From a virus, in the IMG/VR virus record IMGVR_UViG_3300046733_000651, positions 1-21,247 of that record: a stretch of DNA of 21,247 nucleotides. One strand, 5' to 3'. Both the position numbers and the translations under genes were made by a program. Shown here piece by piece: positions 2,921-21,247 of the stretch (its first letter is position 1; every line of letters begins with the position of its first letter). A model generated the notes under the pieces. The model saw only the letters and a program-made list of their open reading frames with translations. It did not search any database and was not told where the DNA came from.

Positions 2921-5144
2921 TGTCTTCTAGTTCAGCTAGCTTTTTGTTTGCATATACGCGCATAGCTTCGCCGCCCCATAAGTTGTAAGCTACAAAACCG
3001 TTATCTAGCCAGGGTTCGTCTTTTAGTTTGTCATCTACAGTACTGTACGTTTTGGCGCGTTCTAAATAGCTTCTAGTGCGTTTTAAAACATCTAGGCTAA
3101 TTGGTTCGCGGCTGCTTAATTGCTGCGCCCTAGCTAGTCCTACGTTCGTCCCAGCGGTTACTACGTTTCTACCGTATTTTTCTATCCAGCCTAGCATACG
3201 CTTAGCGTTGTTAGTCGCCGCCTGTGGGTAGTCGTCGTAGCTTTCTGCTTTGCTAGTTTCTTTACTGCTTTCTGGGTGTTCAGCTGGTAGTAGGTCTGTA
3301 TCGTGTTTGCCACCTTTAAACTTACCATTTTTAAGCGCATATAAATAACTGTTTACGCGCGCCATAGCCCACTGTTCAGGGCTTTGCACTGTTGGTCTAA
3401 CGCTATCTGGGTTAGTTCTGTAAGCGCCTACACCGCGTTTATATACTTCGTATAGTGTACCTACAGTAGTACGCTTGCTTTCGTCGTCGCCTACTTCTTT
3501 GTTATGGTCGTTAGTTTTTTTTTCTAGTGCAGCGTTTAGCCTGTCGCTTATTTCGTCTTTGCTTTCAGCTATAGCCGTTTCGTATTCTGCGTGTGTGTCA
3601 AAAGGCATATATACAGTTTCGCCGTCAAAGGTGTGCTGGTGTGTACCACTACCGCCTAGTTCTTCGGCGCGTTCCTGTGCTTCTTCTTCTGTAGTATATA
3701 CGTCTGTCATTCCTGGTACTTCGGCTTTCACTTCTATACTATACAGCGCTTCTTTGATCAGCCTTTTTTCTTCTTCTATATCTACAGCCATTGGCGCTGG
3801 TTCTGGTATTTCTATGTCCTGGTTACTTACTGGTAGTAGGTTACTAGGTATATAGTAGTCGTCCATAGCTGGCGTATCTTCGTCTTTGCCGTAATTCATA
3901 ACGGCGCGTTTTTCGTTTGGTGTTATCCACCAGGCGCTACTAAGCTGTTGTACTACTTTATCGTTTTCTTCCTGTAGTTCTGGAATAGCTGTAAAGTCAA
4001 AGTCTAGATACAATTTGTCGCCGTACATTGGTACCAGCCAGCGGTTCAGTTCGTCGCGTAGTTTTACTAGTTCTGGTATAACAGCGTTCTGGTATAAAGC
4101 CTTTTTGGCTTCTTTCATATTGTTATACGTGCTAGCTTCTGTATTGTTTAGTAACTGTACAGGCACGTTAAATATGTTACAAATATCTTTTATAGACGCG
4201 TTGTATTGTTCTATTAGTGAAACGTCCGAAGCGTTTAAACCAAAATTAACCCAGCTAAGTTTCTTAGGTGTTATAATAACGTCGCCGCCGTTGTTACTAC
4301 CTTGGTACTGCTGTCTAAATTTGTCCTTTAACTGTTGCGCCTGTACTTCGTTTAGGTCGCCTTCCTCGGACATAAGTACACCCCTAGCGGTCTGGTTCTG
4401 TAGATATTTAACCCCTGTAGTTACAGCTTCGTTATTTGTTGTTAAACTTCTAAGACCAGCGCGTAGTGGGCTTTGACCGTATAAGTGGCTTCCTGTACCG
4501 TCGTAGTATGGGTTAAAATCTTTTATATGAAGTATCTGGTCTGCTGGCATAGAATAGTTACCGTTATATTCTATACGGTATTCTTTTACTGGCTGCATAA
4601 TACCGTTAGATACTATTTCTACCACTTGACTAGGTAGTATATATAGTTCAGTATATTTACCTTGGTTAGGTCCGTTGTCTGGTCCTATACCATATACATA
4701 ACGGTTACCAGTTAGTTTACCAAAAGCTATTAGTTCAGTTAGCCAGCTGTTATAAGACTGCGCCGCGTTTGGCCTGTCTAGTAGTTGGTGTAGTGCGGTG
4801 TCTTTAACTTCTACTAGCGCGTTTTTCTGCAGCATCTTAGCTTGGTACATAGTACTACTATCTAGCGTGCCACTTGTTAGCGCTTTGTATCTTTTTAAAT
4901 CGTTGTCGCTTTGTTTTTCGTAGACCTGAAAGGGTATAGTAGTAGCCGCCTTGGTAATAATATTTACCAGCGAATATACTGTAGCGTTCTTACGGTAGCC
5001 TTCGTCTATATAGCTTCTGTCGTTTTCTGGGTTCCATAAAATACTTTCGCCTAAGTACTGGTATATAGCGCGGTTATATTCGGCTGCTGTCTGTTGGGCG
5101 TTCTTTGTTATAAGTTTTGAAATTCTGTCTAATAGGCTAGCCAT
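2913..5144 (-). CDS. Portal protein, HK97 family, with extended modular C-terminus
   Basis: The first 440 or so of 743 residues are an HK97-type portal, the dodecameric ring at the capsid vertex through which DNA enters and leaves. Visible signs are VYSLVNIITKAATTIPFQVY (56-75), LLDRPN (121-126), the LTGNRYVYG strand (144-152), ILHIKDFNPYYDGTGSHLYG (204-223, the usual HI+ ... GxSPL region) and ICNIFNVPVQLLNN (321-334). Family members usually end near 400-450 residues. Here about 300 more follow, holding three modules: a His-rich one (482-523), a RGVGAYRTNPDSVRP one (about 555-620) and an ATNNAKR ... REPIS one (639-735). Spacing to terminase is 27 bases, with a promoter-like TAAATTTG in that gap. 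Confidence 0.93.
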   Translation of the reverse strand: MASLLDRISKLITKNAQQTAAEYNRAIYQYLGESILWNPENDRSYIDEGYRKNATVYSLVNIITKAATTIPFQVYEKQSDNDLKRYKALTSGTLDSSTMYQAKMLQKNALVEVKDTALHQLLDRPNAAQSYNSWLTELIAFGKLTGNRYVYGIGPDNGPNQGKYTELYILPSQVVEIVSNGIMQPVKEYRIEYNGNYSMPADQILHIKDFNPYYDGTGSHLYGQSPLRAGLRSLTTNNEAVTTGVKYLQNQTARGVLMSEEGDLNEVQAQQLKDKFRQQYQGSNNGGDVIITPKKLSWVNFGLNASDVSLIEQYNASIKDICNIFNVPVQLLNNTEASTYNNMKEAKKALYQNAVIPELVKLRDELNRWLVPMYGDKLYLDFDFTAIPELQEENDKVVQQLSSAWWITPNEKRAVMNYGKDEDTPAMDDYYIPSNLLPVSNQDIEIPEPAPMAVDIEEEKRLIKEALYSIEVKAEVPGMTDVYTTEEEAQERAEELGGSGTHQHTFDGETVYMPFDTHAEYETAIAESKDEISDRLNAALEKKTNDHNKEVGDDESKRTTVGTLYEVYKRGVGAYRTNPDSVRPTVQSPEQWAMARVNSYLYALKNGKFKGGKHDTDLLPAEHPESSKETSKAESYDDYPQAATNNAKRMLGWIEKYGRNVVTAGTNVGLARAQQLSSREPISLDVLKRTRSYLERAKTYSTVDDKLKDEPWLDNGFVAYNLWGGEAMRVYANKKLAELEDNA

Positions 5145-5157
5145 ACTTAATTTTTTA

Positions 5158-5165
5158 CAAATTTA
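5158..5165 (-). promoter_or_regulatory. Promoter-like TAnnTTTG element before the portal gene
   Basis: The minus strand reads TAAATTTG inside TAGTAAATTTGTAAAAAATT, 13 bases before the portal ATG in the 27-base gap after the large terminase. It may drive the head genes separately from packaging genes. A TTG upstream is too close (14 bases) for the usual -33 spacing. Confidence 0.45.
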
Positions 5166-5171
5166 CTATTT

Positions 5172-6353
5172 TTAAATTACAAAAAAGTCGTTACGGTTCT
5201 TATATAAACTATATGTACTGTAGCGAAGCGCGTCGCATAAGTGGTTATGGCGGTCAATTGGCGTATTTATTACCGTACCGTCCTTTAGCTGTTGCCAGTA
5301 GTAGTTCTGTTGTTCTTTGATTAGGTTCGTACTTTCCTGGCTTATTATTACGTCGAATTCCTTTAATAGACTTATACCAGCGGTTATACTACCAGCGCCT
5401 TTTACAGCTGGCTTAGCTAGGCAGTCCATTTGTTTAAGTTCTACTATACTTTTAGGTTCGGCGCTATCGCAAAATGTAAGCGTATGGTTTAACCCTTGCG
5501 CCTTTAGAAAGTCCGCTATATCGCGGTTAGTGTAGCCAGTCTTATATAGCAGTTCGTGTACGTATAGCTTGTTACCTTTCTTAGCTACTTTAAGTATAGC
5601 TGTGGGGTCGTTCGTAAAGCCAAAGTCTAAGCCTAGGTGGTAGTCCAAGTCTGGGAAGTCAGCGTAAGGTATCTGGGTCCAGTTCTGGAATATTTGACGG
5701 CTACTAAATACAGCGCGCTGCCCTTCGCCAAAGACGCGCCAGTAGTCTGGGTCGCGTTCCCTTAGTAATTCTATTTCGCGTACTAATTCAGCTGGTAAAA
5801 AGTTGTTATCCTTATAGGTTGTTATCCAGGTTTCGACGTCGTCGCGTTCTATATCTATTAGTTCTGTATAAAGCCAGTGTACAGGGTCCGAAGGGTTGAA
5901 GTCAATTATAAGCTGTTCTGTTGTACGCATATTCAGCTGTCTAAAGTCTTCGTAGTGCAGTTCGTTAGCTTCGTTTATAAAGCATATATGGCGCTTTCTA
6001 CCGCGTATTTTCTGTGGTTCGTCTACAGACAGAAACGATATAGTACAGCCGTTATAAGTAAAGGTGTTTTCGCTTTTGTTATGTACGCCTTTGTAGTATA
6101 TACCTAGGCGCTGTAGTATTCCTATTAGGTCGCGCTGTACAGAACCTTTAATAGCTGGAAGTGTTTTTCGTACTATATCAATCGTAAGCGGTTTTTGCGC
6201 CGTTGTTATACGGTATACTAAGTATTGACATATAGCGTAAGTCTTACCGCTTCTAGTACCGCCCTGGTGTATTTTTATTCTAGCTTTACTATTGAGGGTT
6301 TGGTAAAATTGTATATTACAGCTTTCTGTTACTTTTTGTCTGCTGGCTTCCAT
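5172..6353 (-). CDS. Terminase large subunit (packaging ATPase and nuclease)
   Basis: The 393-residue motor protein pumps DNA into the prohead and cuts it. The ATPase half has Walker A GGTRSGKT (31-38) and Walker B ICFINEAN (123-130), followed by the coupling-type stretch IIDFNPSDPVHW (149-160). The nuclease half carries the three expected acidic positions: D243 in GLDFGFTNDPTA, D296 in FCDSAEPKS and D374 in HLCDALRY. Length and motifs fit the PBSX/Terminase_3 type. The start overlaps the small-subunit gene by 25 bases, so the two are probably translationally coupled. Confidence 0.97.
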   Translation of the reverse strand: MEASRQKVTESCNIQFYQTLNSKARIKIHQGGTRSGKTYAICQYLVYRITTAQKPLTIDIVRKTLPAIKGSVQRDLIGILQRLGIYYKGVHNKSENTFTYNGCTISFLSVDEPQKIRGRKRHICFINEANELHYEDFRQLNMRTTEQLIIDFNPSDPVHWLYTELIDIERDDVETWITTYKDNNFLPAELVREIELLRERDPDYWRVFGEGQRAVFSSRQIFQNWTQIPYADFPDLDYHLGLDFGFTNDPTAILKVAKKGNKLYVHELLYKTGYTNRDIADFLKAQGLNHTLTFCDSAEPKSIVELKQMDCLAKPAVKGAGSITAGISLLKEFDVIISQESTNLIKEQQNYYWQQLKDGTVINTPIDRHNHLCDALRYSTYSLYKNRNDFFVI

Positions 6354-6682
6354 TCGATTAGCTTGCTTTCTATACTACCGTCGTGGGCTATCTCTTGGCG
6401 TTCTATATAGCCGCGTTTCTTACCTTTTGTCTTTAGGTAGAATATAATAGCCGTAGGGTTTTCGTCCCTTATAAGGCTATGAAGTTTACTTTCTGCAAAG
6501 TCTAGGGCCACGTTACTAATATCGTCTACAGCATCTTTAAAGGCTTTGTCTTTAGCTATCCATAGGTAGTAAGTTTTCCTAGCTATACCCACTTGCTTAC
6601 AAGCAGTAGTTACTACGCCTAGGCTTTTTTCTAAGGCTTCTAATAGTGCGGTTTTTTTCTGTTGTGTATTTTGTGTAGCCAT
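6329..6682 (-). CDS. Terminase small subunit
   Basis: The protein has 117 residues. The N-terminal half is a helix-turn-helix of the homeodomain-like terminase type (LGVVTTACKQVGIARKTYYL, residues 21-40). The middle (DDISNVALDFAESKLHSLIR, 53-72) is a helix likely used for oligomerisation. The segment AIIFYLKTKGKKRGYIERQE (78-97) is a very common element of phage small terminases. It would recognise the packaging site and load the large subunit. It directly precedes and overlaps the large-subunit gene. The start at 6682 opens MATQ after the leader TGCAAT, four bases downstream of a TACTTTTG -7-like element. Confidence 0.9.
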   Translation of the reverse strand: MATQNTQQKKTALLEALEKSLGVVTTACKQVGIARKTYYLWIAKDKAFKDAVDDISNVALDFAESKLHSLIRDENPTAIIFYLKTKGKKRGYIERQEIAHDGSIESKLIEWKPADKK

Positions 6683-6686
6683 ATTG

Positions 6687-6694
6687 CAAAAGTA
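6687..6694 (-). promoter_or_regulatory. Promoter-like TAnnTTTG element before the terminase genes
   Basis: The minus strand reads TACTTTTG, matching the Bacteroidota -7 pattern. It lies only four bases before the terminase start, which would give an almost leaderless message, and I find no well-spaced -33 TTTG. Weak candidate. Confidence 0.3.
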
Positions 6695-6704
6695 CGTAAA
6701 AAAG

Positions 6705-6854
6705 CTATTCTACCTTTAGACCAAACTTTATTTTGATTTGTGTACGCAGTAAACCGTTTTCTGCTTCCAGTTGTATAACCCTTTGGTACAGTTCAGACTT
6801 TTCTAGTTTAAGCCGTTCTAAGTCCCTTTTTAGTAGTATATCTGGTTTCGACAT
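6705..6854 (-). CDS. 49-residue coiled-coil protein of unknown function
   Basis: A short frame runs from ATG 6854-6852 to TAG 6707-6705. The product starts MSKPDILLKRDLERLKLEKS and continues with SELYQRVIQLEAENGLLRTQ. Leucine and isoleucine repeat at heptad spacing, so it is probably one parallel coiled coil, perhaps a dimer. The start lies three bases after the stop of the 52-residue gene upstream, and the stop lies 22 bases before the terminase small subunit. It therefore fits the operon tightly. Codon use (CTA, ATA) resembles the neighbours. I do not recognise a family. Confidence 0.68.
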   Translation of the reverse strand: MSKPDILLKRDLERLKLEKSELYQRVIQLEAENGLLRTQIKIKFGLKVE

Positions 6855-6857
6855 TTG

Positions 6858-7016
6858 CTATAGATCAGTATACCAGCCTATAGTTACGCCAAATAAAAAG
6901 CATAATAACTGTAGCTGGTGGGTATTGTGGTTAGTTGGCTCTTCGCCGCGTGTAAAGCTATCAGTATAAGATACGCCAACAGTACAGCCGTAAATAGGGA
7001 AAAAAGTTAAAAACAT
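6858..7016 (-). CDS. 52-residue small hydrophobic protein of unknown function
   Basis: The frame runs from ATG 7016-7014 to TAG 6860-6858, five bases after the stop of the 68-residue gene and three bases before the next start. The protein begins MFLTFFPIYGCTVGVSYTDS, has a polar middle (FTRGEEPTNHNTHQ) and ends with a hydrophobic run LLCFLFGVTIGWY (37-49). It may be membrane-associated. Placement and tight packing support a real gene. Function is unknown. Confidence 0.62.
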   Translation of the reverse strand: MFLTFFPIYGCTVGVSYTDSFTRGEEPTNHNTHQLQLLCFLFGVTIGWYTDL

Positions 7017-8615: not shown

Positions 8616-10301
8616 CTAGTCCCAGGGTACGTTAGTGTCTTTTATTACTTCAAAAGTTTTACTGGCTTTACCTATAGGCTTGTATACGCCGCCGTTATGG
8701 AAGTCTGGCGCTAGGTCAAACTGTCCCAGCTGTCCGTTTTCTTTACGTTTTATTTTTTCTACGTATATAGTTACTAGGTCGCTTTTGTATTCCGTCTTTT
8801 GCCCTACAGACCTAAAGCATACTAGACCGTTATACGCCTTATTATAGAAGTCTGCGCTGCCGCTAATATCGTACAGGTTAGGCTTTTTAAATACGCCGTT
8901 ATCGCTTTCAATTTTTCTAGGGTGTGCTACTAAAAATAGGTGGGTATTGGTCTGCTGGCAAAACTGCGTTATTTCACTTAGTAGCTTACCTATGTATGTG
9001 AAGTCGCGCTGTGCGCTGTGGTCTAACATATTCCAGGGGTCTATTACTAGCACGTTTACACCTTTTTGAAACACCAGCTGCCTAAACGCGTCTAGTATAC
9101 CTTTTAGCGTTAGGTTTTCTAGGTCTATTTTTATCCAGTAAAAATGTTCTTCTATGAAGTCTTTTGTGTTATTTAGGTCGTCTGTATTACAGCTTTTACC
9201 GTTTAGTTTGTCAGCTATACGCTTTATATGACCTTCGTATGGATAGCTTTCAGGGCTAAACATAGCGCATCTAAAGTTGTATTTTGTAGCTATATTCACT
9301 AAAACCTGGTCTATAAAGTCAGACTTGCCGCTATTAGGTATACCAGTTACTACAGTCCATTCGCCAAAAGCCATATTAAAATAGTTGTCGCTTTCGCCTA
9401 GGTTTATACTATAGTTTTTTATACCGTTTTCGTTGTAGTTTAGTACGTTATTCCATATATTATTTAAATTTAGTACGCCTTCTAGTGGGAAGTTCTTAGC
9501 GTCGCTAATAATTTGCCGTAAGGTTTCGCCACCTTTTTGTATTAAAACTTCGTTAGCGTCTTTGTAATCGCCAAACTCGACGTATTTACAGCGGTAAGCG
9601 CCTAACCTTCTGGCTAGTTCGTTACGTAGCTGTAGCCCTGGCTGGTCGTTATCGGTGCAAAGTATTATTTCGTCTTTGTCTTCAAAGTACTTATAGCAGT
9701 TGTCTAAATAGTCTAGCTTTTGCGTTCCTTTGCTAGCGCCGTTAGGTACACTACAAACGCTGTATAGTCCAGCTTCGTGTAGGCTTAGCGCGTCCATTTC
9801 GCCTTCTACTATATAGCAGCGCTTTCTGTCTTTAAGGTTGTCTACACCATAAAATATAAGTTCAGCGCCACTAACCATTTTAAAGTTTTTTTCGGCGTCG
9901 CGGTATTTAACGTTAATTAGTTCGCCTTCCCTAAAATAATTAAAGTTGATCGTACGCCGTTTTTTCTGTACCTGTGGTATGTACTCTAAACTTTCGCCTA
10001 TTTTCCAGTGTACTAGCGTTGGTTCTGTTATGGACCTACCAGCAAACCAGTCTATAATACGGTTATTTAGTTCAGCGTTTACTTTTGGCGGCTTTGTATA
10101 TTCCTTTTTGGGCGTAAATTTTACGTTACCAGCATAGCCGCAGTTATGGCAGTTATATACGCCTTCGTCTATATTTACGCTTAAACATTTGTCGCTTTTG
10201 TTTTTTCTGGTATGGCTACATTTTGGGCATATTGTTTTGGTTTCGCCGCTGTTAGCCGTTAGGTGTATACCTAGGTCCTGTAGTTTCTGTTTGTATTCCA
10301 T
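8616..10301 (-). CDS. Bifunctional primase-helicase (T7 gp4/Twinkle type)
   Basis: The 561 residues contain a zinc ribbon (CPKC 25-28, CHNC 51-54), a TOPRIM primase core with EGEMDA (166-171) and TDNDQPG (216-222), and a RecA-like DnaB-family helicase with Walker A GIPNSGKS (320-327), Walker B LVIDPWN (418-424) and a sensor-like LVAHPRK (457-463). It would unwind DNA at the phage fork and lay down primers for lagging-strand synthesis. The upstream neighbours encode a winged-helix initiator-like protein and recombination functions. No phage DNA polymerase is in the window, so host polymerase III may be used. The start follows the leader AACAAATG shared by several early genes. Confidence 0.94.
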   Translation of the reverse strand: MEYKQKLQDLGIHLTANSGETKTICPKCSHTRKNKSDKCLSVNIDEGVYNCHNCGYAGNVKFTPKKEYTKPPKVNAELNNRIIDWFAGRSITEPTLVHWKIGESLEYIPQVQKKRRTINFNYFREGELINVKYRDAEKNFKMVSGAELIFYGVDNLKDRKRCYIVEGEMDALSLHEAGLYSVCSVPNGASKGTQKLDYLDNCYKYFEDKDEIILCTDNDQPGLQLRNELARRLGAYRCKYVEFGDYKDANEVLIQKGGETLRQIISDAKNFPLEGVLNLNNIWNNVLNYNENGIKNYSINLGESDNYFNMAFGEWTVVTGIPNSGKSDFIDQVLVNIATKYNFRCAMFSPESYPYEGHIKRIADKLNGKSCNTDDLNNTKDFIEEHFYWIKIDLENLTLKGILDAFRQLVFQKGVNVLVIDPWNMLDHSAQRDFTYIGKLLSEITQFCQQTNTHLFLVAHPRKIESDNGVFKKPNLYDISGSADFYNKAYNGLVCFRSVGQKTEYKSDLVTIYVEKIKRKENGQLGQFDLAPDFHNGGVYKPIGKASKTFEVIKDTNVPWD

Positions 10302-10322
10302 TTGTTTCTATTGTTTCGTTTG

Positions 10323-10436
10323 CTAACCTACAAAATAATCTAGTGCAAAAATTAGCATTTGTACTGTAATAATATAAATAGCAGCAAAATAAGCAGCTGC
10401 TTTTAGTAAAAATTTATGGTTTCTGTTTAGCTTCAT
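10323..10436 (-). CDS. 37-residue single-pass membrane peptide
   Basis: The frame runs from ATG 10436-10434 to TAG 10325-10323 and fills the gap before the primase-helicase. The product has a basic N-terminus (MKLNRNHKFLLK) followed by one hydrophobic segment (AAAYFAAIYIITVQMLIFAL, residues 13-32). That predicts a membrane helix with the N-terminus inside. The codons resemble neighbouring genes. No family is recognised. Small membrane peptides among phage early genes sometimes modify the host envelope or defence; nothing here shows which. Confidence 0.6.
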   Translation of the reverse strand: MKLNRNHKFLLKAAAYFAAIYIITVQMLIFALDYFVG

Positions 10437-10461
10437 ATCTTAAAATTTATTTTTTTGTTAG

Positions 10462-10887
10462 TTAAAATTTATATAAATAACGCTTTATGGCGCTGCTTTT
10501 TTCTATCATCATTACTTGTTTTTCTACTTTATTAGTGTCGTTAAAAATAGACTGCCTAGGGCTGTTTATAGTCTGGCTTGTGTATTCTATACTATCTAGG
10601 TCGAATACCCAGCAGCCTTTAAAATCTATTACAGCGTAGTACCGTTTTGGTACATCTACGTCTAGTAGCGCCTGGTATTTATATACTTCTAGCATTTTGT
10701 CTATATACGCTTCGTTTCTAAATTTAAATTCTATTATACATTTTTGATCGTTCAAGTCTAAGCCCATAGCGTCGTAGTGGCTGTAGTCTTCGCCAGTCCA
10801 TTCTAGGCGCCAGTCGTCTAAATTCAGTAGGAATACTAACTGCTGTTCTAGTAAGTGTATTTTTTCTATACTATTTGTTATGTGCAT
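10462..10887 (-). CDS. Probable PD-(D/E)XK-fold nuclease-like protein, unknown function
   Basis: The 141-residue protein begins with an amphipathic helix (IEKIHLLEQQLVFLL) and then has YDAMGLD (38-44) followed by IIEFKFR (51-57). The spacing D39 ... E53-x-K55, each at the end of a predicted beta strand, matches the catalytic pattern of PD-(D/E)XK nucleases. A helix with Lys70 (MLEVYKYQALL) and a strand (RYYAVIDF) follow, as in that fold. Overall similarity is weak and I know no close family. The gene lies between the initiator-like protein and the primase-helicase. Its start lies in a 23-base tandem duplication, so the ATG at 10910 is a decoy leading to a 10-codon frame. Confidence 0.72.
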   Translation of the reverse strand: MHITNSIEKIHLLEQQLVFLLNLDDWRLEWTGEDYSHYDAMGLDLNDQKCIIEFKFRNEAYIDKMLEVYKYQALLDVDVPKRYYAVIDFKGCWVFDLDSIEYTSQTINSPRQSIFNDTNKVEKQVMMIEKSSAIKRYLYKF

Positions 10888-14038: not shown

Positions 14039-14517
14039 TATATATTAAATTTTGCAGTTATCTGCTGGTTATACTCTTTTTTCATTTTGTAATTAGCCAG
14101 TACTTTTTTAGCCTGGTCTGCCGTACCCTTTAGGGTTGCGTTTAGTTGGTTTTCTGTTAGCCAGCTTTTGTTATCTTGGTTACTAACAGCGTTACCTACT
14201 TCGTCAGCACTAGCTATACTAGTGTCTAGTCCTATACCTAAATAGCCTAACGCGCGCCCTAAAGCGCTAGTAAAGCCGTTTTCTAAAAACGACGTTTTAT
14301 TTATGTAGCTACTATCGCGGTATTCCTGGGCGTGTGCGCTTACCATTTCGTTACCGTCTGGATCCAAAATAGTAGCTTTAAATACGCCTTCTTTGTCGTC
14401 TAAACTTACTAGGTCTTCGACTATTCGCCAGCCATTATAGGCGGCTTCCTTTCTAAAGTGTATAAGCCGTTCGTTTACGGTTATATACTCCTTACCTTTT
14501 ATATTTACTGTTTTCAC
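14038..14517 (-). CDS. ERF/Rad52-like single-strand annealing protein (putative)
   Basis: The protein has 159 residues. The segment ENGFTSALGRALGYLGIGLD (79-98) followed by TSIASADEVGNA (99-110), preceded by KATILDPDGNEMVSAHAQE (48-66), is the pattern I know from phage ERF-type recombination proteins of this host group. It would anneal single strands exposed by the exonuclease. The start is a GTG (14517-14515) overlapping the TGA stop of the upstream gene as GTGA; no in-frame ATG lies near. The C-terminal third is lysine-rich, possibly DNA-binding. Confidence 0.7.
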   Translation of the reverse strand: MKTVNIKGKEYITVNERLIHFRKEAAYNGWRIVEDLVSLDDKEGVFKATILDPDGNEMVSAHAQEYRDSSYINKTSFLENGFTSALGRALGYLGIGLDTSIASADEVGNAVSNQDNKSWLTENQLNATLKGTADQAKKVLANYKMKKEYNQQITAKFNI

Positions 14518-14532
14518 TTGCTTATAATTAAA
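14507..14532 (-). repeat. Start-region repeat, ERF-like gene copy
   Basis: This matches 13685-13710 at 24 of 26 bases. One of the two differences changes the start codon from ATG to GTG, and the other is synonymous-type within the third codon region. The copy also encodes the end of the upstream HTH protein. Confidence 0.85.
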
Positions 14533-14714
14533 TTAAAAGTTACATCTATACTAAAGCCAGCCTTATGTAACGCGCGAAGTTCAGCTACTCTAAAAGTTTC
14601 TGGGCTATCTAAACGCGTATATACTGTTGGGTATTTGGCGCCTATTAGTTCGCATATATCTTTTAAAGTGTAGCCTAGCTTTCGCATCTCAGCTGTAAAT
14701 AAATCTTTATACAT
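14514..14714 (-). CDS. Small helix-turn-helix regulator-like protein, first early gene
   Basis: The protein has 66 residues. The segment YTLKDICELIGAKYPTVYTR (15-34) is a helix-turn-helix: helix, turn at GA, recognition helix KYPTVYTRL. The rest (VAELRALHKAGFSIDVTFNL) is helical. As the first gene after the tail terminator it is well placed to control the early operon, perhaps by binding the TAGTTT repeats just upstream, which is inference. Such short proteins in this position are common in phages of this group. It may instead be a host-takeover factor. Confidence 0.68.
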   Translation of the reverse strand: MYKDLFTAEMRKLGYTLKDICELIGAKYPTVYTRLDSPETFRVAELRALHKAGFSIDVTFNLIISK

Positions 14715-14732
14715 ATTGTATATTTTATCGCT

Positions 14733-14765
14733 AAACTACAAATAGATTTTAAACTATGCAAACTA
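14733..14765 (-). promoter_or_regulatory. Phased TAGTTT repeats in the early upstream region
   Basis: The coding strand has TAGTTT three times, at 14765-14760, 14756-14751 and 14738-14733. The start-to-start distances are 9 and 18, so the sites fall on a 9-base grid. The region lies between the tail terminator and the first early gene, where an early promoter and operator are expected. CTATTTGTAG within it resembles the -7 element but is one base short of TAnnTTTG. Confidence 0.4.
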
Positions 14766-14782
14766 TTTTTAAAGTATTAAGA

Positions 14783-14823
14783 TAAAAAAAACCTACCCAG
14801 CGCTAGGCATACAGGTAGGTTTT
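14783..14823 (-). terminator. Intrinsic terminator closing the tail operon
   Basis: On the minus strand AAAACCTACC pairs perfectly with GGTAGGTTTT across a 17-base loop that contains AGCGCT, and the T-run continues (TTTTTTTT) into ATCTTAA. It lies 23 bases after the last tail gene and before the early region. The flanking A and T tracts mean it could also act weakly on the other strand. Confidence 0.88.
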
Positions 14824-14845
14824 CGCAGCAAACAAAGGGGACGTT

Positions 14846-16981
14846 TTAACTTTGTACTACGGTTGTAAATTTACTAGTAGAAGTAGCCGCTACTGGGTTG
14901 TCTTGGTTTGGCTTATGTGCTATTATATTGTACCTATTTGACTTTACACTATATTCTAAGCTGTCTAGTATTAAGCTGTCTGGTTCGCTAAAGTTTGTAA
15001 AGTTTATACGTAGTTTATCCATAGGCGTAACGGGCGCGGTTTCATTGTTATATACTGTACCTTCGTACCTAGTTACAATAGTCCTAAAGTCGTCTAGCTG
15101 TTGCTTTTGTGTTTGTAATACTGGCGTAGAAGTACTAAGTATATTACTAACATCATAAACGCCTGTATAGTCTAGTACTAAGCCGTTTAGTGGTCTATCT
15201 ACTTCTAAGTCGCCTATGATAACATTTGTAGTAGTGTCCTGTGTTAGTGTTATTTCATTTGCTTCAGTACTTGGGCTGTCTAAATAAAGTAAAGTATTAT
15301 CTACATAAACGCCCTGGTAGTTTAGTAAAAAGATTTCTGGACCATAAATTTTTAAAATTACAGTCTGGCTTTGCCCAGCTGCCGCTGGTAGTTTAGCTAT
15401 ACTTATGTCTTGACTTATCCATTTGTTAGCGGACGATATAGCCGCGTCTTCAAAAAAGAAGTATTTTGCTGTAGTAGTCCAGTTATTATTAGCGCTATCG
15501 TAATAGTATGTAGGTCCGTTAGTAAAGTAAAGCTGGCACCAGAATTTATTATAACCTGTAGAAGTCTGTAAACCTGTGGCGCTATAGTAATAGCTTAGCT
15601 TTAGTTTTAAATCAAAATCTCTAGGGTATAAATAGTTACCAGTAATAGCTAGGTTTGTTGGCGTGGCGCCGCTATTTGTAGCTGTAGTTTTAAAACTACG
15701 TACACCACTAAAAGCTATTTCGTCTGTTACAAAACTACCGCTAGATATAGTCCAGTGGTTTGTATTTTGGAATTCAAAACCAGCATCTTCCTTATAGCTT
15801 AGGTTAGCTTTTACAAGTTCTGTTTTGTATAGTAAAGCTTTATAACCGCGTTCAGCTTCGCGTGTTAAGTTTTGATCTAGTGGCTGTAAGTCTGTACGTA
15901 TAGTTCTTAAACCTTCGTAGTAGTAGTCGCCTTGCAAAGTACCGCTGCTGTTAAATCTTTTATAGTATAACTGTTCTATATCGCCTTTTAAATACGCTTG
16001 GCGTAGTGCGCCTATACCGCTAGGTACAGCGTCGTTATCGTCTATATAGTCTTTAACGTAGTCTATTACAGCTTGTTCGCTATATAGGCTGTTATTTACT
16101 ACTACAAATTTACCGTTTGCTTGGAATACCCTACTATTTACGCTTTTTAGTACGTTTTCTAGAAATTCTTTAGCGTTAAAAAATTCGTATTCGTCGCTTA
16201 AAAAAACGCTTTCATTTATAAAGGTATTTACATAAGTTAAAAATTCAGACCTATTACCTAATATATCGAATACGCTTAATTCATTGTTAATAATAACGTC
16301 TAAACCTAGCCCAGTTTTATTTATTGCAGCGCATATTACACTAGCTAGGCTGGCTTGAATTCTTTGTAGCCCTGTATTTATACTATAAAAAGTGTTATCT
16401 ACAAAAAGGTTATCTAAGTCGCCTAGTCCGTCTATAGCTGTTAGCTGTATAGCTTGGGGGTTTGGCATCATAAGTTCTTTAAACTGGTCGCTAAGTAGCC
16501 AGCCAGTCCAGAATAGTGTATAATTGTCTTGGGTTTCTGTAAGTACAGCGCTTACGCAGTCTAAAGCTTCCATTATACCGCCGTCGTTAATAACTCGGTT
16601 TTGTAAAAAAGTTCCTGTATCGTAGTAGCTACCGTTTATACAGTCAGCAGCTTCTACTATACCGCCGTCTAGCTGTACTTTGTTTTTAAATTCGTCGCGT
16701 ATAGCCTGGGCTACATATACTTCTACTTTGTATTCGCGTTCTGGTTCGTTAAAAAAATCGTCGTAGTTAGTTTCGTCTGTTTGGTATAGGTTTATACTAC
16801 AGGTGCTACCAATTATAGGGCTATAAAAGTCGTCGTCGCCGTCCCATTTTATTTTAACAGGTTCAGCGCCACCTACTAGCGGTAGTATGTCGCCTGTATA
16901 ATTGTTTTTTAAAATGTCTAAACGTCTACCGCTGCCTTCGTGGTCTTCAAAGTCTAACCTATATTTTACGCCGTACGCCAT
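14846..16981 (-). CDS. Distal tail/baseplate protein with two DGGI peptide units and a jelly-roll-like domain
   Basis: The 711-residue protein encoded after the tape measure is of a kind I know from flavobacterial phages: YRLDFEDHEGSGRRLDILKN (7-26), DFYSPIIGSTCSINLY (51-66), EREYKVEVYV (81-90), LFWTGWLLSDQFKE (156-169) and AIDGLGDLD (182-190). It probably forms the tail tip or hub. Between EREYKVEVYV and YTLFWTGWLL, where I expect a tight turn, about 60 extra residues carry two DGGI-x-EA-x-x-C units (101-115 and 129-143). Residues about 400-569 (FEFQNTNHWTISSGSF ... VYVDNTLLYLD) look like a carbohydrate-binding jelly roll, so host glycan contact is plausible. It ends 23 bases before a terminator. 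Confidence 0.85.
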   Translation of the reverse strand: MAYGVKYRLDFEDHEGSGRRLDILKNNYTGDILPLVGGAEPVKIKWDGDDDFYSPIIGSTCSINLYQTDETNYDDFFNEPEREYKVEVYVAQAIRDEFKNKVQLDGGIVEAADCINGSYYDTGTFLQNRVINDGGIMEALDCVSAVLTETQDNYTLFWTGWLLSDQFKELMMPNPQAIQLTAIDGLGDLDNLFVDNTFYSINTGLQRIQASLASVICAAINKTGLGLDVIINNELSVFDILGNRSEFLTYVNTFINESVFLSDEYEFFNAKEFLENVLKSVNSRVFQANGKFVVVNNSLYSEQAVIDYVKDYIDDNDAVPSGIGALRQAYLKGDIEQLYYKRFNSSGTLQGDYYYEGLRTIRTDLQPLDQNLTREAERGYKALLYKTELVKANLSYKEDAGFEFQNTNHWTISSGSFVTDEIAFSGVRSFKTTATNSGATPTNLAITGNYLYPRDFDLKLKLSYYYSATGLQTSTGYNKFWCQLYFTNGPTYYYDSANNNWTTTAKYFFFEDAAISSANKWISQDISIAKLPAAAGQSQTVILKIYGPEIFLLNYQGVYVDNTLLYLDSPSTEANEITLTQDTTTNVIIGDLEVDRPLNGLVLDYTGVYDVSNILSTSTPVLQTQKQQLDDFRTIVTRYEGTVYNNETAPVTPMDKLRINFTNFSEPDSLILDSLEYSVKSNRYNIIAHKPNQDNPVAATSTSKFTTVVQS
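16553..16597 (-). repeat. DGGI peptide unit, copy 2 (in distal tail protein)
   Basis: Residues 129-143 read RVINDGGIMEALDCV. The coding DNA shares GACGGCGGTATA and GAAGCT with the other two copies. It lies 28 residues after copy 1, making a tandem pair. Confidence 0.9.
16637..16681 (-). repeat. DGGI peptide unit, copy 1 (in distal tail protein)
   Basis: Residues 101-115 read KVQLDGGIVEAADCI. The conserved core is (K/R)V-x-x-DGGI-x-EA-x-(D/N)C(I/V), preceded by a phenylalanine four residues before the K/R-V pair begins its DGGI run. The DNA core GACGGCGGTATA is exact. Confidence 0.9.
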
Positions 16982-16987
16982 ATTTTT

Positions 16988-19426
16988 TTATTTAATTCTA
17001 CCGCGTTGTTTTTCAGCGCGTTGAAGTGCTACTACTAGGTCTTGACCGTTTAATCTAAATTCGCCACCTACGTTTACTTGTTGGGCTTGACCGCCGCCTA
17101 TAATATTTTTAAGCTTATCTAGTGGCGCTATTACTTCTGGGTTGCTTTTAGCGCCAGCATATTCGCCCATAAGTCCAAGAGTAGGACCGCTAACTATACC
17201 GCCATTAGCAAACGCCGCTACAGCGCCGCTACGTGGTCCACTTTGACCGCCGCCAATATCGCCGCCACCGCCTTTGCCTTGCACTATTCCAGGTACTACG
17301 CTTTTAATCATTGTACCCACAGCTATAAGCGCTATACCAGCTGCTATCGCTGTAAAAGGGTTTTTAAAAGACATTTTTATAGCCTTCATAGCTATACCTA
17401 TACTTATAGCGGTTTTACCTAACTGAATAGCTATGTCGCCTATACCGCCTAATAAAACACCGCCTAAAGCGCCTAATAAATTACCGCCGTTTGCTATAGC
17501 ATTACCTAAAGCCGCGCCTATACCTTCAGCCATATTTTGCAAATGTGGCGTAATTTCTACACTAGCTTCGTTTAAAATTGTAGCGGTTTCTGCTAGTTTA
17601 GTTCTTAGTATTCCGTTACCATTTGCTACACTATTAGCTAGTGCTGTTGCTGGATCTAAGCCTATAGTTTGCATCTCGCCCAGTAAACTACTTCCAGCGT
17701 CTAAGTTTAATTCCTGGGTAGTACCTAAAGCATTTACACCAGGTAAGTCCTGAGTAGTACCTAAAGCGCTTACAGCGGCTATAGGTTTTCTAGTTTCGCC
17801 GCCGCCCATTGTAGGTAAGGCTGTAGGTGCTGGTGTATTTGACGTTTCTAGTCTTTGTTTTTCTAGTTCTTCGTTAGCTTTTATAGCTTCGTTTACTACT
17901 ACTAACTGCTTTTTATATACGTCTATTTCGTCCTGTACTTGTTGTACCCTATACTGTCCGTCTTTATAGCCGCGTTTGAAAAGGCCTTGTTTTCTTTTTT
18001 CTAGCGCTTCTATTTTTTCGCCTAATTGTGCGGCGTCCATTTGTTCAAGCGCTACTTGATTAGCTTCTTTTTGGCTTTTTTTATACGATATTATAGCGGC
18101 GGTTACAGCTGCTATTGCAGTTGCTACAGCTAGTATAGGGTTAGCTATCATAGCTGCGGTTAAAACTTTAAAGCCACCAGCTACAAGTGGTAAGGCTTTT
18201 ATTAAAGCGCCAAAACCTAAAGACATTTTACCTATTACTATTAGTATAGGACCAATAACGGCAGCTATACCGCCTATAGCTAGAATTATTTTTTTTGTGC
18301 TTTTGTCTAATTCGTTAAACTTTTTTGTAATTGTAATAACAGTTTTAGTAAACCCTTCAATTAGTGGCACTAAACTATCTAGTAATACAGCACCTACTTC
18401 TGTTAGTGCTATTTTAACAGAATTTAACCCCTTAGTAAGTTTAAAACTTGCGCTTTCAGAAGTAGCCTCAAACGCTTTAGCTGTAGCGCCTTGGGTATCG
18501 TTCATAGCGTCAAAAATAGCCCTAGTGCTATCTACACCAGCGCCTAGTAAGTCCATTACACCAGACAGCGCTCGTACATTACCGAAAACATTCTGGGCGG
18601 CTGTGTCGTTACCTTCAAATTTTTGTTTAAGTATTTCTAAAGTAGCTAGTAGTCCGTCTTCTTTTAAACTTTGCCTAAGCCCAGCGCTAGACAAACCTAA
18701 GGCGCTTAGCTGGTCTTCTGCTTGTTTTGTGGGTTTAAGTAGTGAAGTTAAAATACTTCTAATTTGTGTAGCGGCTTCTGCGGCGCCTGTTCCTGTTCTA
18801 GATAGTGCGGCAAAAGCAGCGCCTACTTCGTGGAATTTTACACCCATATTTGAAGCTACAGGAAGTACAGCACCCATACTTTGCGCTAGTTCAGAAGCTT
18901 CTAATTTACCTTCTCTTACAGCGCTAACCATAACGTCAGTAGCTGCTTCGGCGTTTAGGTTGGCGCTACCGTATGCGTTCATAGCGGACGTAGCTAAGTC
19001 GGCTACAGTAGCCGTTTCGCCTAGTCCTACAGCTGCGGCTTTTAATGAAGCGTTTAAAACGTCTGTAGCTTCTTTGCCTTTAAGCCCAGCGGACGTTATA
19101 AAAAATAGTGCTTCTGCTGCTTCTGCGGCGCTTTTACCAGTATCGGTAGCCATTTTTTTAGCAGTTTCGCCCATTTTATCTACGTCAGCTGCAGCTACAC
19201 CTACTAAACTTTGTATTTTAGTCATAGACTTGTCAAAGTCTACACCTAATTTTAAAGCAGCGCCACCAGCTAAAGCTAGCGGCAAAGTTAATTTAGTAGA
19301 TAAATTTTTGCCTACAGCCTGGGTTTTAGCGCCAAAAGCCTGTAATTTACTTCCAGCCTTATCTAAGCCTTTAGAAAGTTTACTACTGTCAGCTTCTAAT
19401 AATATCCTTAATTTTTGGTCTGCCAT
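16988..19426 (-). CDS. Tail tape measure protein (TP901 type)
   Basis: The 812-residue protein sets tail length and fills the tube before DNA ejection. Residues 60-330 are the conserved TP901-type region (LGVDFDKSMTKIQSLVGVAA, GLKGKEATDVLNASLKAA, AYGSANLNAEAATDVMVSAV). Hydrophobic stretches at 379-447 and 650-713 are likely membrane-inserting segments. Residues 453-530 are a coiled coil. The C-terminus GLMGEYAGAKSNPEVIAPL (751-769) is a frequent tape-measure ending. A short linker repeat, ALGTTQ at 554-559 and 566-571, separates the halves. At about 1.5 angstrom per residue the tail would be near 120 nm, a siphovirus-like tail; this is an estimate. Confidence 0.95.
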   Translation of the reverse strand: MADQKLRILLEADSSKLSKGLDKAGSKLQAFGAKTQAVGKNLSTKLTLPLALAGGAALKLGVDFDKSMTKIQSLVGVAAADVDKMGETAKKMATDTGKSAAEAAEALFFITSAGLKGKEATDVLNASLKAAAVGLGETATVADLATSAMNAYGSANLNAEAATDVMVSAVREGKLEASELAQSMGAVLPVASNMGVKFHEVGAAFAALSRTGTGAAEAATQIRSILTSLLKPTKQAEDQLSALGLSSAGLRQSLKEDGLLATLEILKQKFEGNDTAAQNVFGNVRALSGVMDLLGAGVDSTRAIFDAMNDTQGATAKAFEATSESASFKLTKGLNSVKIALTEVGAVLLDSLVPLIEGFTKTVITITKKFNELDKSTKKIILAIGGIAAVIGPILIVIGKMSLGFGALIKALPLVAGGFKVLTAAMIANPILAVATAIAAVTAAIISYKKSQKEANQVALEQMDAAQLGEKIEALEKRKQGLFKRGYKDGQYRVQQVQDEIDVYKKQLVVVNEAIKANEELEKQRLETSNTPAPTALPTMGGGETRKPIAAVSALGTTQDLPGVNALGTTQELNLDAGSSLLGEMQTIGLDPATALANSVANGNGILRTKLAETATILNEASVEITPHLQNMAEGIGAALGNAIANGGNLLGALGGVLLGGIGDIAIQLGKTAISIGIAMKAIKMSFKNPFTAIAAGIALIAVGTMIKSVVPGIVQGKGGGGDIGGGQSGPRSGAVAAFANGGIVSGPTLGLMGEYAGAKSNPEVIAPLDKLKNIIGGGQAQQVNVGGEFRLNGQDLVVALQRAEKQRGRIK

Positions 19427-19444
19427 AGTGTAGAATTATAGCTG

Positions 19445-19452
19445 TAAAATTA
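19445..19452 (-). promoter_or_regulatory. Degenerate promoter-like element before the tape measure gene
   Basis: The minus strand reads TAATTTTA inside CGTAATTTTACAG, in the same gap position as the TAnnTTTG elements elsewhere but without the final G. Low confidence. Confidence 0.2.
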
Positions 19453-19460
19453 CGAAAAAA

Positions 19461-20203
19461 TTAACCGTTAGTATTTTTAAAGTTTGCTACAGTTTTACTG
19501 CCGCCAGCTTTAGCCCTTGCTACTTTTTCTAAAAACTTTTCGTAGTCTTCTTTAGTGCTTTTTGGCGTCCCTTTTTCTAGATATATGTCTTGCGGTAGTG
19601 GTAGTAATTTGTCTGGCGTTATCATTTGACCGCGCTTTGTGCAGTTTAAGTTATATAACATAGTAGCTATGTAGCGCGTACGTTCCCAGTCTAAATAGTT
19701 ATTTATAGTGTGGCTTTCGCCTAGCAGCTGGTTTTCGTTCCAGGTATTAGCCCAAAAGTCGTTAGGGTTTATACCTATTTGTCCTATATAATAGTCTAGT
19801 AGGTCGTCCCAGGTTAGGGCTTTGTTTTTTTTTGCTGTTTTGTACTAGCTTTTACGTTGCGCTTTACGCCCATATTTAGGTCGTTACCTAGTAGTTTAGT
19901 TTCTAAAAGCGCGGCTACTATGTCGTTTAACTGGTCGCCTGTAAGGTCTTCTAACCAGGCGCCTACAGTAAACTTATTATAGTCTATTTCGTTATTATTT
20001 TCTTGATCGTTTGCTAGTAGTGCGCTGTAGATTAAATCACGTATAGCGCTAAGGCTTAAACCTTGGCTAAAAATTTCGCCTATTTGGTCTAGTGTTACGC
20101 CTTGGGCTTCTGTAAAGTTCGCCCAGAAATTCATACTAAAATGAAGTGTGCGGTTTTTACCGCCTAGTTTTAGAGTGTAGTACCCCCTTTTTCTGTTTGC
20201 CAT
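19461..20203 (-). CDS. Tail assembly chaperone, -1 frameshift fusion product (lambda GT-like)
   Basis: After residue 126 (19826) a -1 shift on nine A continues translation as NKALTWDDLLDYYIGQIGIN and onward to 19461, giving a fusion of about 247 residues. The extension of 121 residues has no start codon until ATG 19661, yet the part before that ATG holds the typical chaperone segment IGINPNDFWANTWNENQLL and LDWERTRYIATMLYN. The reading frame is open over the whole stretch. This is the familiar G/GT arrangement between tail tube and tape measure genes. The fusion brings tape measure and tube subunits together during assembly and is not part of the virion. A free 66-residue protein from ATG 19661 is much less likely. 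Confidence 0.87.
19814..20203 (-). CDS. Tail assembly chaperone, short product (lambda G-like)
   Basis: The 129-residue zero-frame product starts MANRKRGYYTLKLGGKNRTL, with a beta-like start and then helices (FWANFTEAQGVTLDQIGEIF, LSAIRDLIYSALLAND, TGDQLNDIVAALLETKLL). It ends in a basic tail that includes the slippery codons (KQQKKTKP). It matches small phage tail chaperones in size, composition and position. The start ATG follows directly on the T-run of a terminator-like hairpin, so message for this gene should be lower than for the tail tube upstream. Confidence 0.85.
   Translation of the reverse strand: MANRKRGYYTLKLGGKNRTLHFSMNFWANFTEAQGVTLDQIGEIFSQGLSLSAIRDLIYSALLANDQENNNEIDYNKFTVGAWLEDLTGDQLNDIVAALLETKLLGNDLNMGVKRNVKASTKQQKKTKP
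19824..19834 (-). other. -1 ribosomal frameshift slippery site, C-A9-C
   Basis: The coding strand reads C, nine A, C. The zero frame is CAA AAA AAA ACA AAG CCC TAA. Slippage on A AAA AAA gives AAC AAA GCC CTA in the -1 frame. The zero-frame stop is eight bases downstream of the run. I see no convincing downstream pseudoknot. Confidence 0.85.
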
Positions 20204-20205
20204 AT

Positions 20206-20241
20206 TAAAAAAAATTAGCCCTAGTTCCTTACGCTAGGGCT
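20206..20241 (-). terminator. Terminator-like hairpin between tail tube and chaperone genes
   Basis: On the minus strand AGCCCTAG and CTAGGGCT form a perfect 8-pair stem with a 9-base loop, then AA and eight T. It ends two bases before the chaperone ATG, so the T-run doubles as that gene's leader. Partial termination here would set a high ratio of tube to chaperone and tape measure. Confidence 0.82.
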
Positions 20242-20253
20242 GTTAATTTGTTA

Positions 20254-20673
20254 CTAGTTAGTAGCTGCTGTAATAGTACCAGTAATAGTAATAGAACCAC
20301 TATAAGTTACTGGGCTTTCCATTTCAGCGCTAACTTCTAAGCTGCTTAAAAAACCAGCACCGCTATATAGTTGGTCGCCTGTAGCGGCAGTTCCAAACTC
20401 AAAGTATAGTTTTGTACGTGCTAGTAAAAAGTCTGCTAGTTCAGCAGCGTTTTGACTGTCTGTATAGTCTACTAAGCCTTCAAATGAAATTTCGCCACTT
20501 CTTACACCAGCTATTACTTCTTGAAAGCCGCCGCTATCTTTAGTAGTAGCTTCTGGTAAATCGTTAGACAAAGATATAGTACAGCTTGTAGTGTGTCCTA
20601 TATTCGCTTCTGCACCGTCTGTAGACGATACTTTTAGTAGTAAATCTGTTCCGTTAAATACTGTACTAGCCAT
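20254..20673 (-). CDS. Major tail tube protein (TP901-1 type)
   Basis: The 139-residue beta-rich protein is of the TP901-1 major tail protein type. Residues 6-12 NGTDLLL, 25-47 (IGHTTSCTISLSNDLPEATTKDS) and 49-69 (FQEVIAGVRSGEISFEGLVDYTD) are followed by helical AELADFLLARTKLYFEFG, and the chain ends in a repeated beta strand (VTYSGSITITGTI). It would stack as hexameric rings around the tape measure. It is paralogous to the next upstream gene. A hairpin terminator after it and a promoter-like TATATTTG before it suggest separate strong expression. Confidence 0.9.
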   Translation of the reverse strand: MASTVFNGTDLLLKVSSTDGAEANIGHTTSCTISLSNDLPEATTKDSGGFQEVIAGVRSGEISFEGLVDYTDSQNAAELADFLLARTKLYFEFGTAATGDQLYSGAGFLSSLEVSAEMESPVTYSGSITITGTITAATN

Positions 20674-20691
20674 AAGTCGTTTTATTTTCTA

Positions 20692-20699
20692 CAAATATA
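20692..20699 (-). promoter_or_regulatory. Promoter-like TAnnTTTG element before the tail tube gene
   Basis: The minus strand reads TATATTTG inside ACGTATATTTGTAGAAAAT, 18 bases before the tail tube ATG and in the 41-base gap between the two paralogous tube genes. It shares the GTA-n-ATTTGTA-n-AAA pattern with the elements at 946 and 5158. No good -33 TTTG is seen. Confidence 0.45.
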
Positions 20700-20714
20700 C
20701 GTATTTATTTTTTT

Positions 20715-21203
20715 TTAATTTACTTCTATAATACTACTTAATTCTAGTTCTAAACTATAAGTAGTTACGCCTTCTGCTGGACCTACTTGTTCTACAGAAG
20801 TTACAAAACCATTACCGTTTACTATAAAATTATCATTTATAGACTGCATATAAAATTCTACTTTTTCGCGTGTAATTAGTAAATCTACATAGTCGGCATA
20901 GCTTAAACTGTCTGTATAATCTACTAGACCTTCTACGCTTATAGAACCGTTTTTAACGCCTGGTAATACTTCTCTAAAACCTTGGCTTTCTTTGTTAGTG
21001 CTTTCTGGCATATCTACATTTAGACTTACGCTTACGTTTGTACTGTGTCCTAGTGGTAGTTTAGCGTCTTCGAACGCATCACGTATACAGTTAATAGCTT
21101 CTAATATACCGCCGTCGCGTTTTACGCGTTCACTAAATAGCGCTACTTTAGGATCAATATCGCTTTTATAAAGTAAAAAGTTAGTACCATTTATAGCAGC
21201 CAT
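20715..21203 (-). CDS. Second tail tube-like protein with a DGGI peptide insert
   Basis: The 162-residue protein is a paralogue of the adjacent tail tube protein: NGTNFLLYKS, LGHSTNVSVSLNVDMPESTN, KESQGFREVLPGVKNGSISV and EGLVDYTDS align with the same segments there. The main difference is about 25 extra residues (roughly 22-48) holding RVKRDGGILEAINCI, the same unit found twice in the distal tail protein. It may be a minor tube component, a terminator-proximal ring or a decorated tube subunit. The start follows the leader AACAAAAT. Confidence 0.85.
   Translation of the reverse strand: MAAINGTNFLLYKSDIDPKVALFSERVKRDGGILEAINCIRDAFEDAKLPLGHSTNVSVSLNVDMPESTNKESQGFREVLPGVKNGSISVEGLVDYTDSLSYADYVDLLITREKVEFYMQSINDNFIVNGNGFVTSVEQVGPAEGVTTYSLELELSSIIEVN
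21084..21128 (-). repeat. DGGI peptide unit, copy 3 (in second tail tube protein)
   Basis: Residues 26-40 read RVKRDGGILEAINCI. The coding DNA shares GACGGCGGTATA and GAAGCT with copies 1 and 2. The unit is absent from the neighbouring paralogue, where the flanking segments are otherwise alignable. Confidence 0.9.
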
Positions 21204-21209
21204 ATTTTG

Positions 21210-21247
21210 TTATATATAGTCAATACCTAAAAAGGTGTGTACGCCGT
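21210..21247 (-). CDS. C-terminal end of an upstream gene, probably tail completion (partial)
   Basis: One minus-strand frame is open from the window edge and encodes GVHTFLGIDYI before TAA (21212-21210), six bases before the next ATG. The other two frames also reach stops, after 6 and 8 full codons, so openness alone is weak evidence. The short spacing and the aromatic, beta-like ending suit a tail terminator or head-tail joining protein, which is expected just upstream of the tube genes. Confidence 0.45.
   Translation of the reverse strand, partial: GVHTFLGIDYI

Follow-up and report, generated by a model that had tools for sequence, protein, structure and literature searches.

The window analysed here (21,247 bases) covers an entire IMG/VR virus record, and two of its tail genes encode three copies of a short peptide unit (table 1). 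Two copies, KVQLDGGIVEAADCI (16637-16681) and RVINDGGIMEALDCV (16553-16597), lie in frame in the ORF at 14846-16981, and the third, RVKRDGGILEAINCI (21084-21128), lies in frame in the ORF at 20715-21203, all on the minus strand and at the positions given by the original prediction. The DNA core GACGGCGGTATANNNGAAGCT has three matches in the window when up to three mismatches are allowed, all of them exact, as compared with 0.02 expected from shuffled sequences; the three copies are not a product of chance, and the conservation at the DNA level claimed for them is real. They also constitute the top direct-repeat family of the region 15500-21247 (42 nt, 67-81% identity). The unit is there as described, except that its extent, some 26-30 residues, proved to be greater.

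Table 1. Unit-bearing genes and associated features of the window, with sites of the Trp-rich tag in related loci.
Feature	Position	Strand	Remarks
Tail-tip protein, Dit-like by position, 711 aa	14846..16981	-	first gene after the tape measure; two tandem units
Tip-protein unit 2, residues 124-149, TFLQNRVINDGGIMEALDCVSAVLTE	16535..16612	-	profile match 48.8 bits in the identical locus L006
Tip-protein unit 1, residues 96-121, DEFKNKVQLDGGIVEAADCINGSYYD	16619..16696	-	profile match 48.7 bits in the identical locus L006
Tail tube protein 2, 139 aa	20254..20673	-	Phage_tail_2; unit-less paralogue (internal control)
Tail tube protein 1, 162 aa	20715..21203	-	Phage_tail_2 match, AF2 model; one unit between strands 1 and 2
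Unit in tube 1, residues 21-46, ALFSERVKRDGGILEAINCIRDAFED	21066..21143	-	profile match 47.9 bits
Window end	21204..21247		relative L097 continues with a 111-aa gene, then a 415-aa fibre gene further upstream
Trp-tag sites	L044 13169-15064, L044 5807-6058, L109 2619-3086, L048 1327-1776

The identity of the smaller carrier as a tail tube protein is well founded. It matches Phage_tail_2 (PF06199) with an E-value of 1.9e-9 and 38 bits (cut-off 23.8), the domain starting at residue 54, after the unit, and Foldseek matches its AF2 model to tail tubes in PDB (GTA, lambda and others; E about 1e-5 for GTA and lambda). Its gene adjoins that of tube 2, and the two proteins are 40% identical outside the unit. 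Since the window lineage has two tube genes and the relative L139 lacks the unit-bearing one, tube 1 is possibly a decorating tube that can be dispensed with. The assignment of the larger carrier as a distal tail protein agrees with the position of its gene and has no counterpart in family or fold: Pfam and PHROG scans of the 711-aa protein yielded no Dit family match, Pfam having no match to it of any kind, and Foldseek found no meaningful or confident fold match for residues 1-257, for which the AF2 model is poor. As claimed, the two carriers are otherwise unlike, falling into separate clusters once the unit is masked. The tape-measure gene of the window contains a 36-nt tandem repeat (81% identical, 17708-17779), and in the locus L015 (11777-14260) this gene appears split into three ORFs, as that contig reads. 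The window terminase has its closest counterparts in phages of Bacteroides and Phocaeicola, and the tip protein in phages of Cellulophaga and Salinibacter, which makes a host within Bacteroidota most likely.

Insertion sites, predicted fold and DNA-level similarity of the unit

Comparison with homologues shows that the units fill hairpin turns that are otherwise empty, with zero to two copies per turn. The β-hairpin loop of the tip protein is 11 residues long in its empty state (L109, L098, L048), and one unit lengthens it to 40-42, two units to 68-72; gp59 of the Cellulophaga phage phi17:1 exhibits the empty version of this hairpin, EHYVDGSLDWVGYV. The corresponding turn of the tube protein reads YKGDI-AVGHT in L109, as opposed to YKSDI, 33 residues and PLGHS in the window, and is empty also in L048; the insert in tube 1 relative to unit-less homologues spans approximately residues 17-49. 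The single tip unit of L089 and L013 resembles unit 1 at its front and unit 2 at its end, and might be a product of recombination between tandem units. A more divergent version of the unit, two residues longer (FQDRVEEFDTDAGVCEAPECIDEIF), occurs in the tip hairpin of L021 (tip protein, 4874-6910), L028 (4581-5672) and L024, and is found alone in some tip hairpins and beside a normal unit in L029, L035 and L039. AlphaFold modelling of the proteins alone gave a mixed outcome: the unit of tube 1 is modelled as two helices (residues 16-29 and 34-45) with the DGG turn between them, at a moderate pLDDT of 65-70, and the unit region of the tip protein is mostly below 50. With moderate confidence, the unit is thus predicted to fold as a helical hairpin.

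The exact DNA identity of the three window copies is somewhat above the expectation from genome codon usage (about 5e-4 for six shared codons), and ten of ten shared codons agree between the unit of the tube and unit 1 of the tip protein in the window lineage, compared with 5.6 expected. This within-genome excess is concentrated in the window lineage and weak elsewhere, and in other phages the codons of the conserved residues vary freely, which indicates that conservation acts on the protein. A mobile DNA micro-element was considered improbable on both of these grounds. Of the originally suggested spreading micro-cassette there remains a module grafted onto many unrelated proteins; a recent spread of its DNA is not supported, as synonymous codons differ between copies. 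In L029, the unit cores of the tube gene (10001-10489) and the tip gene (14166-16310) have about 20 identical nucleotides in common, GGGTTTTGAATGATGGTGGCAC, with codons unlike those of the window, a hint that copying within a genome occasionally takes place.

A module shared by many unrelated phage proteins

A profile of the unit, built from relatives that were collected with the tube and tip proteins and with DNA patterns as queries, and then iterated, corresponds to the consensus [FY]xxRVxxDGGxxEAxxC[LVI]xxx[LFI] and a length of about 26-30 aa, from at or before the F/Y seven residues before the Asp to at or past the hydrophobic residue 14 after it. Carriers with the unit masked form 25 blastp clusters, of which 23 are apparently genuine, i.e. 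there are about 23 mutually unrelated phage protein families that contain it. None of 34,846 reversed ORFs reached the profile threshold, their maximum being 9 bits, whereas 250 real domains score above 16 bits. The carriers identified are the tail tube (F1), the tail terminator (F14, phrog_176) and the tip protein (F0); further ones include large proteins encoded near the tape measure (F2, F6, F8), fibre proteins (F4, phrog_5939 tail protein) and numerous small proteins 45-90 residues long. The unit constitutes the C-terminus to within a few residues in about ten families, among them proteins of only around 50 residues. Between one and three units were found per record, except for one of 60 kb that has five, and they are often spread over two or three proteins; L318 has a unit in its tip protein and also one in a small adaptor. 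In a set fetched through the fibre domain described below, 91% of nonredundant units have the conserved Cys. Many of the small unit proteins (L451, L456, L463, L474, L393) begin with a Trp/Gly motif, e.g. MANEIYPVSWWGNPxxxxWGGIYYDY, possibly the virion anchor of the adaptor.

No model in Pfam or NCBIfam recognises the unit, and a PDB sequence search with unit profiles gave no credible match. The profile phrog_31097 (unknown function) matches 40 of 57 unit sequences searched alone; it is a 125-position profile without an assigned function, and PHROGs does not treat the unit as a multi-family module. A tblastn search of INPHARED yielded convincing matches only in the Nonlabens phages P12024S/L, and none were found in 396 Bacteroidota genomes, a survey whose positive control consisted of virus records only. 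A degenerate-DNA scan of bacterial genomes was discarded, its 34 matches being mostly from unrelated phyla and looking like chance. Literature searches with the peptide or fibre-domain strings, whose coverage excluded most subscription papers, found no relevant paper. The unit is a real, previously unnamed module of Bacteroidota phages, mostly aquatic, and the idea of a small autonomous element is borne out by its occurrence on so many otherwise unrelated virion proteins.

Could the unit have arisen separately in each family as a convergent short linear motif, which might still serve as a docking tag? Its flanks vary, its insertion sites differ, and 26 residues cannot prove descent; however, conservation extends over about 22 positions with scores of 40-50 bits, beyond the few residues typical of linear motifs, and we consider convergence quite improbable. 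Even less can be said for a selfish or neutral cassette that recombines into tolerant loops and has no binding role. Insertion into turns in zero to two copies, the contraction to one unit in L089 and L013, the identical core codons in the window lineage and the L029 core would all fit it, but about eight positions are kept across unrelated families while synonymous codons vary, the unit is placed exactly at the C-terminus before one gene type (see below), and it is missing from the 396 bacterial genomes, so that this explanation appears extremely improbable.

Association with one class of fibre genes and a second tag

One fibre N-terminal domain constantly accompanies the unit. It is referred to here as ASL (short form ASLxxxPSGYK) and has the consensus xxDxASLxxIPxxYKxxKLYSxxPxxGDGDFxFxRxxxATRVNxxGLIE and no conserved Cys. 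The genes of the small unit proteins are directly followed by one starting with this domain, usually after 0-31 bases, and nearly all of the C-terminal-unit families have the start of such a gene within tens of bases downstream. In the family F4, and there only, the unit and the domain are fused in one polypeptide, the unit lying about five residues N-terminal to the domain. The arrangement is represented in a cultured phage, Nonlabens phage P12024S, whose gp09 ends in the unit and whose gp10, annotated as similar to tail fibre protein, begins with the fibre domain. The fibre gene of the window lineage lies close to the unit genes without adjoining them; its distance upstream of the tube genes ranges from a few hundred bases to about 3 kb. 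For instance, L097, with a tube protein 99% identical to that of the window, has a 415-aa fibre with an ASLxxxPAAYK N-domain (1798-3042), a 111-aa gene (3045-3377) and then tube 1. The fibre domain has no match in the window itself; only 44 bases remain upstream of tube 1, so that any fibre gene of its own has been cut off.

Among whole records, the fibre domain was found in 29 of 38 unit-positive ones and, at comparable strength, in none of the 19 unit-negative ones (18 relatives sharing tip or tube genes and the Cellulophaga phage phi17:1); the nine unit-positive records without a match include the window, and several of them are truncated fragments. Since these records had been gathered by way of the unit or its carriers, the search was reversed, starting from the fibre domain alone. 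The unit was present in 55 of 74 further ASL-fibre loci, 43 times in the ORF immediately upstream, and the loci without it are mostly short contigs. Another fibre domain, the LKIKDTYQ class (SLSGLKIKDTYQGLIK), is accompanied by the unit in only one of 47 further loci (p about 1e-16 versus ASL, an inflated value that overstates the evidence, since many loci are related). The N-terminal parts of the adaptors vary while the unit and the fibre domain stay constant, as expected if these two are an interacting pair.

A fibre-assembly or chaperone element, aiding fibre folding or trimerisation rather than attachment, would likewise account for small unit proteins encoded directly upstream of the fibre. 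Units also reside inside the tube, terminator and tip proteins, i.e. in virion parts where a chaperone needs no copy, and a chaperone role consequently seems very unlikely.

In unit-negative relatives, a Trp-rich motif, W[DN]xxxxxWxxxxxxW (spacing about seven residues), sits in the tip-protein hairpin; it also forms the C-terminus of tube 1 in L109, L098 and L048 and of an 84-aa protein encoded directly upstream of the LKIKDTYQ fibre (for sites see table 1). All 19 unit-negative IMG/VR relatives that were tested have the motif, as opposed to none of the 38 unit-positive records, and it is present in 27 of 47 LKIKDTYQ loci versus none of 74 ASL loci; most Trp-tag records without an LKIKDTYQ match start or end near the tube gene. 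There are, then, two tags in equivalent places, mutually exclusive and each with its own fibre class, a pattern predicted by a docking code and by neither tube-tip pairing nor a neutral cassette. A tree of tip proteins with the insert removed implies at least three tag changes by parsimony, with one independent co-switch of tag and fibre countable among the rows with a known fibre; the tree was therefore set aside as a stand-alone proof of co-evolution. The many unrelated adaptor families preceding one fibre domain, together with the fusion, are stronger independent evidence.

A putative docking tag for tail fibres

We propose that the unit is probably a transferable docking tag that binds the ASL fibre N-domain and thereby fixes fibres to the virion, so that the docking element imagined in the original prediction would have the fibre as its partner. 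The unit would be exposed on the outside of the virion, either in a hairpin turn of one of the larger carriers (tube, terminator or tip protein) or at the C-terminus of an adaptor of around 50 residues; as a plug, it would bind the N-terminal domain of one tail-fibre class, the socket, and this contact would attach the fibre to the particle. Surface display, physical binding, its specificity and a role of copy number in setting the number of fibres are all features that we infer from the sequences. A wider plug-and-socket code, in which the DGG hairpin, the Trp tag and probably more tags sit on any virion protein with a site and each accepts the matching N-domain only, might well exist too, although we would not count on it; unrelated phages could then exchange entire fibre sets, and the copies of the tag could tune the number of fibres.

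The two linkages originally envisaged fare less well. A role in joining tube to tip is not supported: many unit-bearing phages have no tube unit, among them L139, which keeps two tip units and has no unit-bearing tube, and it is a fibre N-domain that regularly goes with the unit. A disulfide to the fibre domain is unlikely, as that domain has no conserved Cys, and most of the fibre-fused F4 units lack theirs. A related alternative is that units pair with each other, as four-helix bundles and perhaps with a Cys disulfide, tying unit-bearing virion proteins together. The amphipathic hairpin, the Cys kept in about 91% of units even in the fibre-fetched set, the two or three unit-bearing proteins of many phages and the tandem pairs in tip proteins and in F5 would suit such pairing. 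Several records have a single unit only, however, the Cys is missing from most F4 units, and the company of the fibre domain and the exclusion of the Trp tag would be left unexplained; pairing of units with each other seems unlikely to us.

Docking of fibres by the unit would resemble a system described in Klebsiella phages, K1E/K1-5/SP6 and G7C, in which short conserved peptides attach receptor-binding proteins to T4gp10-like anchors (PMC6872550). That docking is partly shown and partly modelled, and the peptide, as short as seven residues, is modularly exchanged (PMC6872550). In both cases a short conserved peptide docks a host-recognition protein to another virion protein, here putatively. 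There, however, fibre or spike proteins carry the peptide at their N-terminus, and the T4gp10-like domain serves as its socket. Here the peptide is found mainly on virion-side proteins, with more than 20 unrelated carriers, and the fibre N-domain would act as the socket. No T4gp10-like domain was detected when four window proteins and ten further carriers were scanned with Pfam.

A second parallel is offered by the 936 lactococcal siphophages, where carbohydrate-binding modules decorate Dit ('evolved Dit'), the major tail protein and the neck (PMC6669499). There too, one kind of module is added to several tail proteins and is thought to serve host binding, but those are whole domains that contact the host themselves, in contrast to a 26-30-residue helical hairpin accompanied by a separate fibre gene. 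The unit is probably too small for direct host binding, and its identity as a carbohydrate-binding domain was ruled out, considering its 26-30 aa, the two helices in the model and the lack of a meaningful Pfam match. By analogy, the module would work like the docking peptides and be distributed like the evolved-Dit decorations, while being a member of neither system.

Our literature search found no paper on fibre attachment in these Bacteroidota phages. A tag that predicts the fibre and occurs in more than 20 unrelated families would provide functions for many 'hypothetical' ORFs of aquatic phages, and it would both mark fibre genes and explain the sharing of fibres between unrelated phages. 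With 26 residues on one side and a fibre domain on the other, it would also represent a minimal peptide/domain pair amenable to test-tube work.
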